Assembly (NCBI RefSeq): GCF_003355155.1
Contig: NZ_CP031320.1
Location: forward strand, 1,164,369-1,228,368
Direction of reading: 5' to 3'
Source: Streptomyces armeniacus
GTDB lineage: Bacteria; Actinomycetota; Actinomycetes; Streptomycetales; Streptomycetaceae
Length of the DNA stretch: 64,000 nucleotides
Numbering within the stretch: position 1 is the stretch's first letter; the number at the start of each line of letters is the position of its first letter. The position numbers and the translations under genes were made by a program. The notes beneath the pieces were generated by a model. The model was not told where the DNA came from. It did no database searches and saw only the letters and a list, made by a program, of their open reading frames with translations. Shown piece after piece: positions 33,488 through 46,208 of this stretch.

Positions 33488-34225
33488 ATGCGTACAGTCA
33501 TCGCCGGTGGACACGGCCAGATCGCCCTGCGCCTCGAACAGCTTCTCGCCGAGCGCGGAGACACCGTCGCGGGCCTCATCCGCGACCCCCAGCAGTCCGA
33601 CGACCTTCGCGCCACGGGCGCCGAACCCGTCGTGTGCGACCTCGAGTCCGCGTCCGCGGACGAGGTCACGCGGCACCTGGAGGGCGCGGACGCCGCCGTG
33701 TTCGCGGCGGGCGCCGGGCCGGGCAGCGGCGCCGCGCGCAAGGAGACGGTGGACCGCGGCGCGGCCGTGCTGTTCGCCGACGCGGCGGAACGGGCGGGCG
33801 TACGGCGCTTCCTGGTCGTCTCCGCCATGCGCGCCGACGAGGAGCCGCCGCCCGAGATGGACCCTGTGTTCGCCGCGTACCTGCGGGCGAAGGGCGCCGC
33901 GGACGACGCCGTACGCGCCCGCGCCGGGCTGGACTGGACGATCCTGCGGCCCGGACGGCTCACGGACGCGCCGGGCACGGGCCGCGTACGGCTGGAGGAG
34001 CGGACGGGTCGCGGTGACATCACGCGGGACGATGTCGCGGCGGTCCTGCGGGCACTGCTGGACGAGCCGCGCACGGCGGGGCTGACGCTGGAGCTGGTCA
34101 ACGGGGACACGGCGGTCGCGGACGCGGTGGCGGTCTGCGCTCGGGGGTGGGGCTGGCTCTTTTACACATCTGACGCGGCCGACGAAGGGGTGGGCGGAGG
34201 TCTAGGTGGACGGGGTGTGATTTAG
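33488..34225 (+). CDS. NAD(P)-binding (atypical SDR/NmrA-like) protein, 3' end corrupted
   Basis: Rossmann-fold protein. Dinucleotide motif VIAGGHGQIALRL at residue 4 (GxxGxx form), LVVSAMRAD near 115, YLRAKGAADD near 138, and WTILRPGRLTDAPGTG near 158 as in NAD(P)H-binding SDRs. Real coding appears to run to about 34150 (LVNGDTAVADAVAVC); the rest (LFYTSDAADEG) is translated sequencing adapter, so the stop at 34225 is artificial and the true C terminus is missing. Confidence 0.75.
   Translation: MRTVIAGGHGQIALRLEQLLAERGDTVAGLIRDPQQSDDLRATGAEPVVCDLESASADEVTRHLEGADAAVFAAGAGPGSGAARKETVDRGAAVLFADAAERAGVRRFLVVSAMRADEEPPPEMDPVFAAYLRAKGAADDAVRARAGLDWTILRPGRLTDAPGTGRVRLEERTGRGDITRDDVAAVLRALLDEPRTAGLTLELVNGDTAVADAVAVCARGWGWLFYTSDAADEGVGGGLGGRGVI
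34153..34223 (+). other. Illumina Nextera adapter embedded in the assembly (artefact)
   Basis: Bases 34153-34185 match the 33-nt Nextera transposase read-through adapter at 30 of 33 positions. Next come 8 index bases (34186-34193), then a 29-nt block (34194-34222) matching the P5 tail at about 20 of 29. Most mismatches are toward G, as in low-quality two-colour base calling. Translated, it gives the notorious contaminant LFYTSDAADE. It is not biological. Confidence 0.93.
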
Positions 34226-34248
34226 AAAAGGGAGCGGCAGGAGGAGAA

Positions 34249-34377
34249 GACCTGAGCCGCGCGCTCTCCCCTGCAGTGCCCCCTCCCGTACGCGGGCGGG
34301 AGGGGGTACGGAGCGGCAGGCCTCGGCCGCCCGCGTACGGGAGGGGGCACTGCAGGGGAGAGCGCGCGGCTCAGGTC
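34249..34377. repeat. 51-bp perfect inverted repeat next to the adapter (probable chimera)
   Basis: Arms 34249-34299 and 34327-34377 are exact reverse complements around a 27-nt loop. The 11-mer ggagcggcagg also occurs at 34231 and 34310. Coming directly after adapter sequence, this is best read as a fold-back/chimeric read end rather than a terminator, although a real hairpin at the right arm is possible. Confidence 0.85.
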
Positions 34378-34619
34378 CGCGCTGGGGTCTCGCTTCGGGG
34401 CGCGAGCAGGCTCAGTCCGGGGCCCTCAGCGGGCACACATTCGGGCGTCGCGCACTCGGCTCGCGACCGTGCGGCCGGCGCCGCGAGCACACAGACAGCG
34501 GGCGCCGGGCGTCGTGGTCGCCTCGGTCGCGTGGCTGTGGTGGCTCGTCGTGCTCATGTGTTCAGTAAAACAGACGTACGGTGCCGTACCGCCCGCGTCG
34601 GCGGCCCGCCGACGGCCGT
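34378..34619. other. intergenic stretch right of the artefact
   Basis: Together with 34226-34377 this is about 390 bp without a firm gene. Only a doubtful 43-codon frame on the minus strand (34426-34557) is seen. Confidence 0.4.
34426..34557 (-). CDS. doubtful small ORF (43 aa)
   Basis: ATG at 34557 to TGA at 34426, encoding a Ser/Thr/His then Arg/Cys/Ala-rich peptide (MSTTSHHSHATEATTT start). Third positions are strongly G/C as in real genes here, but no Shine-Dalgarno or family is recognised and the region adjoins an assembly artefact. Could be a short regulatory peptide or chance. Confidence 0.25.
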   Translation of the reverse strand: MSTTSHHSHATEATTTPGARCLCARGAGRTVASRVRDARMCAR

Positions 34620-35273
34620 TCAGGCCTCGGTCAGAATCTCCACGCCACTGGCTGTGACCTGCACGGATACACCGGACAGGTCGGTGACGACGGCGTCGGC
34701 GCGCAGCTCCTCGCGGGCGTGTGTTGTGGTCAACGCCACGGTGCGCATGCCCGCCGCGCGGGCCGCCTCGAGACCGGCGGGCGCGTCCTCGAAGACGACG
34801 CAGCGGGCCGGGTCGGCGCCCAGCTTCCGGGCGGCGAGCAGGAACGGCTCGGGGTCGGGCTTGCCGCGTACGACGTCCTCCGCCGCGATCACCAGCGGCG
34901 GCTCGACGCCCACCTCGCGCAGCCGCGCCTCGGCCAGCGGCCGGATCGCGGAGGTGACCACCGCCCAGGGGGCGGGCGCCGCGGAGAGCGCGGAGACCAG
35001 CGCGGCCGTGCCGGGCAGCAGCACCACTCCCCCGCCCACGTCCTCCACTTCGAGCTGTTCGATACGGCGGACCGCACCGGGCACCTCGGCCGCCGGCAGC
35101 AGCTCGGAGATGATCTCCGCGGCGGTCCGCCCGTGCAGCTCGACCTGGGCGAACTCGGCCTCGGTCACGCCGTGCTCTCCGGCCCAGCGGGTCCAGCAGC
35201 GGATCACGGACTCCATCGACGACAGGAGCGTCCCGTCGTTGTCGAACAGCAGGGCATCGGCGGAGAGCTTCAT
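34620..35273 (-). CDS. HAD-family phosphatase
   Basis: 217-aa haloacid-dehalogenase-like hydrolase of the beta-phosphoglucomutase/sugar-phosphatase type. Nucleophile motif [10 protein letters not shown] at residue 10, cap domain, motif II VVTSA near 103, motif III KPDPEPF near 138, motif [13 protein letters not shown] near 160. Likely dephosphorylates a small phosphorylated metabolite; substrate not predictable. Confidence 0.88.
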
Positions 35274-43357: not shown

Positions 43358-46143
<2,786 letters not shown>

Positions 46144-46161
46144 GGGGTTCTCCTTCTGAAG

Positions 46162-46208
46162 CATGCGCTGATAGGTATAAGTATGCACTCGACTGTATGC
46201 TTCGTCAA
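46162..46208 (-). promoter_or_regulatory. argG promoter with probable ARG boxes
   Basis: -35 TTGACG (46203-46208), 17-nt spacer, -10 CATACT (46180-46185). The stretch holds repeated GCATAC/GCATGC half-sites (46161-46200) resembling Streptomyces ArgR targets and also the argC promoter here. Confidence 0.65.

Follow-up and report, generated by a model that had tools for sequence, protein, structure and literature searches.

The window, by which we mean the whole stretch of 64,000 nucleotides analysed here (G000:C1:1164369-1228368), belongs to an 8.08-Mb genome, G000, that consists of one contig of 8,083,249 bases and scores 100 for completeness and 0.31 for contamination. On its plus strand, positions 33488-34152 hold the gene of an NAD(P)-binding protein, which we assigned from Pfam (PF13460, E = 9.4e-45 for the ORF at 33488-34225), the lengths of its homologues and the order of genes at the locus, and which appears to be the last gene of a left-hand contig. 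The next 33 bases (34153-34185, plus strand) agree at 30 positions, with 3 mismatches, with the Illumina Nextera transposase/i5-side adapter, a match that arose in none of 100 shuffles; they seem to have been read through from the left contig. Behind them (34186-34248, plus strand) lies what looks like a degraded, error-rich index, the P5 complement, an A-rich tail and unassigned read-tail sequence, with 23 of 37 bases agreeing with the consensus of 53 adapter copies. A perfect inverted repeat follows, with 51-nt arms (34249-34299 and 34327-34377) that are 100% complementary around a 27-nt loop (34300-34326). Loop and right arm are included in the stretch 34300-34619 (minus strand), which spacer alignments mark as the probable tip of a right-hand contig, and the first gene of that contig, whole in G000, encodes a HAD-family hydrolase according to Pfam (34620-35273, minus strand). 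No N gap is present at this junction. Farther right, a check of gene families covered GDPD, MFS, argH and argG; the labels PlsC and TetR are those of the earlier note.

The gene at the left end is nearly complete. Homologues of the NAD(P)-binding protein at 80 named loci measure 216-226 aa from ATG to stop, the best-matching named locus being 82% identical, and the window copy has about 221 codons ahead of the adapter; therefore, doubt extends only to the stop and a few final residues. The earlier note had stated that the true end of this gene is missing, which holds for a few final codons and the stop but overstates the loss.

The order of genes changes exactly where the adapter and the fold-back lie, as had been claimed. 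To the left, G000 from 1079 to 1198.5 kb is collinear with 3440-3538 kb of the closed genome G031, and to the right 1199-1319 kb is collinear with 1173-1332 kb of G031, apart from a few stray matches that are probably paralogous. These two sides presumably correspond to the rpoB region (SCO46xx) and the arginine region (near SCO1565-1580) of S. coelicolor, as the earlier note proposed. Its suggested synteny check against a closed relative was thus run, and G031 places the two sides at separate loci; G055 shows the same split. In all five relatives examined locally, the left-side genes were found on one locus, with the CDA-NAD order, and the right-side genes on another. Among 100 sampled relatives (E up to 1e-40, with the own genome excluded for the left gene), the NAD(P)-binding gene was present in 97 and the HAD gene in 49. 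In nineteen relatives, a single contig carried both; their linear spacing there ranged from 1.50 to 5.99 Mb and in no case fell below 100 kb. No HAD gene occurred in the fetched flanks of any of the 80 named loci of the NAD(P)-binding gene, and for 69 of these the sequence extends at least 8 kb downstream of that gene. By this comparison, the flanks of the junction are distant in the way that a misjoin would require, with a separation of no less than 1.5 Mb in each of the 19 relatives. Between the NAD(P)-binding gene and dnaA there are 1.85 Mb in G000, versus 0.48-0.95 Mb in 17 of 19 relatives; G007 (9.0 Mb as a linear count) and G088 (2.8 Mb) fall outside this range. By contrast, the adjacency of argG and argH (43358-46188, minus strand), which had been listed as an oddity, was not borne out as one: the two genes stand side by side in G031 as well, at 1182.7 and 1184.2 kb, and we dismissed this ordinary order as a sign of misassembly.

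The right end of the junction still carries sequence that belongs to a gene located elsewhere. The usual neighbour of the HAD gene is metN. Of 47 relatives with both genes, 4 were excluded because the genes fall on different contigs; in the other 43, the two are adjacent on one contig in every case, separated by a spacer of 333-456 bp (a linear distance, as for the spacings above). In G000, metN lies at 1455256, 256 kb from the HAD gene and directly after a GtrA gene, a neighbourhood seen in 0 of 38 relatives with both genes (lists compared by eye). When we aligned 34300-34619 with the HAD-metN spacers of five relatives, the best local scores were 81-93, whereas 200 shuffles each reached at most 49, and 34378-34600 aligned with 23 sequences upstream of metN, taken from 28 that carry a leader ORF. 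Therefore, the right contig still begins with the metN leader even though metN itself is elsewhere, and we regard this leader, retained to the left of the HAD gene, as the strongest single proof of a misjoin.

One alternative is that the two regions became neighbours through a genuine rearrangement of the chromosome, with a hard breakpoint filled by adapter junk and the scaffold order being right. In favour of this, metN in G000 follows the GtrA gene without any N or fold-back, and the chromosome arms may rearrange within the genus, given that, with respect to dnaA, the NAD(P)-binding and HAD genes share a side in some relatives but are divided between the two sides in others. The leader to the left of the HAD gene, however, places the break inside the HAD-metN spacer and at a contig tip, rather than at a native breakpoint that leaves the spacer of the old neighbour unsplit, and metN sits at another such tip. 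Moreover, the two tips in G000, of 320 bp on the HAD side and 96 bp on the metN side, together make 416 bp, which is a normal spacer size. The metN-side tip clearly beat its shuffles against the spacer of one of five relatives, and its last 25 or so bases aligned by eye with all five. A degraded adapter (21/33 bases) lies at 1455127, exactly at the seam between GtrA and metN; because it is so degraded, and one 21/33 match also arises by chance in 800 kb of relatives, the join between GtrA and metN is the less certain of the two. This adapter and the shared leader speak against a clean natural join at that seam.

The usual neighbour of the left end is also found elsewhere. A yajQ/DUF520 gene stands downstream of the NAD(P)-binding gene in G031 and in 20 of 26 stretches from other relatives, with a tRNA-Tyr between the two genes in G031, G090, G036 and L129; no such tRNA was found in the L112 and L120 stretches. 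In G000, yajQ is located at 6834825-6835340 with tRNA-Tyr beside it in a mirrored arrangement, 5.6 Mb from the NAD(P)-binding gene. When open reading frames from the G000 stretches fetched beyond 1300 kb were compared with the 80 named loci of the NAD(P)-binding gene, one match, to one locus, resulted; therefore, this DNA is not the usual downstream region of that gene. The true continuation is not closed in G000, where about 50 kb lies between tRNA-Tyr and an adapter-bearing contig end at 6886448. Thus, both ends have their usual neighbours elsewhere in the same genome (yajQ at 6834825 and metN at 1455256), which again points to a misjoin.

The fold-back has no counterpart at the homologous sites. 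The next-longest inverted repeat in 400 kb of G000 had arms of 24 nt, no perfect inverted repeat longer than 13 nt occurred in 29 stretches upstream of metN in relatives, and the longest perfect repeat in five HAD-metN spacers of relatives was 10 nt. Judged by its absence from these spacers, the 51-nt repeat is an artefact, in which the left arm (34249-34299) would be a spurious copy of the right. A natural terminator or palindrome was ruled out by the same comparison, and matches to Rfam families at the fold-back (RF04159, RF03828 and two weaker ones) fell on the hairpin itself with scores far below the gathering thresholds. Fold-back (inverted chimeric) reads are a recognised class of read artefact, and the repeat resembles them in its perfect arms, its short loop and its absence from relatives. 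It differs in being an occasional companion of the junctions, because arms of at least 30 nt were found at only 2 of the 48 junctions in adapter stretches of G000 (1198617 and 4957666); both lie within 100 bp after the start of an adapter.

Adapter sequence is spread throughout the record. An initial search of G000 (E up to 10) returned at least 42 matches with 40 of 71 candidates scored, and missed at least the copy at 1327219, so that all counts of copies are lower bounds. We then surveyed 39 further stretches of 8-15 kb together with the locus of this junction, at a cut-off of at least 22 of 33 bases. This yielded 53 rows, grouped as 48 junctions including this one, and 1 of the 39 stretches was empty; less one duplicate and with the copy at 1327219 added, G000 has at least 53 distinct copies, which divide between the two strands as 29 and 24. 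Their consensus runs from the adapter, with a single base changed, through an index-like stretch that the copies share to the P5 complement and poly-A, with the majority base at each index position present in 43-81% of copies. Two relatives, scanned over 800 kb in all, gave no match of at least 22/33. Four of the junctions carry a pair of copies that point towards each other, as expected of two contig tails. Short N gaps lie within about 170 bp of the adapter at three junctions (606359, 2703844 and 7420941), and longer N runs lie about 2 kb from the adapter at 7997220 (at least 3049 N) and at 1105124 (1185 N). The latter run (G000:C1:1105124-1106308) falls within the left contig, some 58 kb ahead of the window.

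With index and P5 complement in order and the same index across copies, this sequence is adapter read-through contamination, which occurs in short-read assemblies. The likeness lies in the read-through order of adapter, index-like stretch and P5 complement; the difference is that here the copies are very error-rich, sit inside one large contig and mark joins. In the titles and abstract openings of the literature we found no account of adapter-joined genomes.

As a control, we examined 19 other junctions below 7.0 Mb among the 48, comparing 37 of 38 flank pieces with G031, G055, G090 and G093 (the right piece of 5862311, probable junk, was left out). Both flanks were clearly placed in at least one relative for 8 of the 19 (1069034, 2704005, 3663625, 3929674, 4055991, 4957579, 5547622 and 6295506). 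None of these eight joined neighbouring regions, and the flanks were at least 0.8 Mb apart in all, although some placements, such as that of the MFS flank at 3929674, may involve paralogues, and the placement of 4957579 relies on G093. The placement of the junction at 6886448 was weak, its left flank being only 47-55% identical, and 10 of the 19 had no usable placement. The junction at 1327219 joins sequence like that at 1332 kb of G031 to sequence like that at 3396 kb. Very probably, the G000 record strings together about 50 misordered and misoriented contigs, joined at adapter tails, and claims from G000 about gene order, replication arms or cluster boundaries would therefore be unsafe. Real rearrangements would not coincide with adapters; with none of the eight clearly judged junctions joining neighbours, and with the metN leader kept at the right end, a rearrangement is very unlikely as the origin of the junction. 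The reading that the adapter is a mere local blemish in a correctly assembled locus, compatible with the lack of an N gap and with the fact that adapter contamination need not mean a misjoin, has next to no likelihood, as the gene order changes at the adapter compared with relatives and each side has its usual neighbour at another place in the assembly.

Taken together, these data indicate, with a probability of roughly 97%, that the junction is an assembly artefact in which distant contig ends were joined through adapter and fold-back sequence. The earlier claim of a false join between distant regions, across which linkage is not to be trusted, is upheld by the distances in all 19 relatives, the neighbours found elsewhere and the adapter junk at the join. 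The left contig (the rpoB region) ends in the NAD(P)-binding gene and runs into the Nextera adapter, and the right contig (the arginine region) begins in the metN leader and bears a fold-back tip. In the sequence of events that we propose, short library inserts may have caused reads to run into untrimmed adapter, and the assembler may have let noisy adapter tails lengthen the contig ends. A fold-back read would have lengthened the HAD end, at a hard G+C-rich spot, and the ends would then have been merged or concatenated without real linkage. Chimeric scaffolds and contig misjoins are recognised assembly faults, and the present case resembles them in that distant regions are fused while collinearity is kept on each side; it differs in that the fault appears to recur widely in one record that is counted as a single contig and 100% complete.

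The junction is not a real biological feature and contains nothing biologically new; it is a warning about data quality. The fault is invisible to completeness and contamination scores, whereas simply scanning single-contig genomes for adapter sequence would reveal records of this kind. Until checked, linkage across 34.15-34.30 kb of the window and across the other adapter sites is unfit for analyses of synteny, operons, gene clusters or chromosome arms.

Several observations lie beside this question. The last 0.2 Mb of the record (G000:C1:7868100-8083249) is rich in adapter copies, many only a few kilobases apart, which gives the impression that small unplaced contigs were appended there. Among other Streptomyces, G031, G036, G055, G090 and G069 have the rpoB-side NAD(P)-binding gene and the HAD/arg region together on one side of dnaA, and G040, G049, G068, G083, G093 and others have them on opposite sides, which reflects either real rearrangement of the arms in the genus or the way in which contigs were split and oriented. 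In G000, the 3' end of tRNA-Tyr is followed immediately by a stretch of about 50 kb (G000:C1:6835593-6886448, L359-L361) for which the fetched parts of G031 and G055 offer few counterparts and which is possibly an element integrated at the tRNA. In G055, some 23 kb likewise separates the NAD(P)-binding gene from yajQ.

The metN leader itself is widely shared. A small ORF (MTTTS...ARCMCRMC..., with a Met/Cys-rich end) lies about 300 nt upstream of metN at 28 of 29 loci (L260-L288), or at 17 of 29 under a stricter three-Cys pattern, and is followed by a strongly conserved CGCCCCGAAGCG hairpin; the window copy, at 34378-34600 on the minus strand, carries an insertion of about 45 nt. Two copies of the ORF had no match in NCBIfam, the G090 copy of the leader had none in Rfam, and the titles and abstract openings of the literature gave no account of this leader. 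Across 23 copies, differences at the three codon positions numbered 616, 773 and 493, a pattern atypical of protein, and for this reason the leader may be an attenuator RNA.
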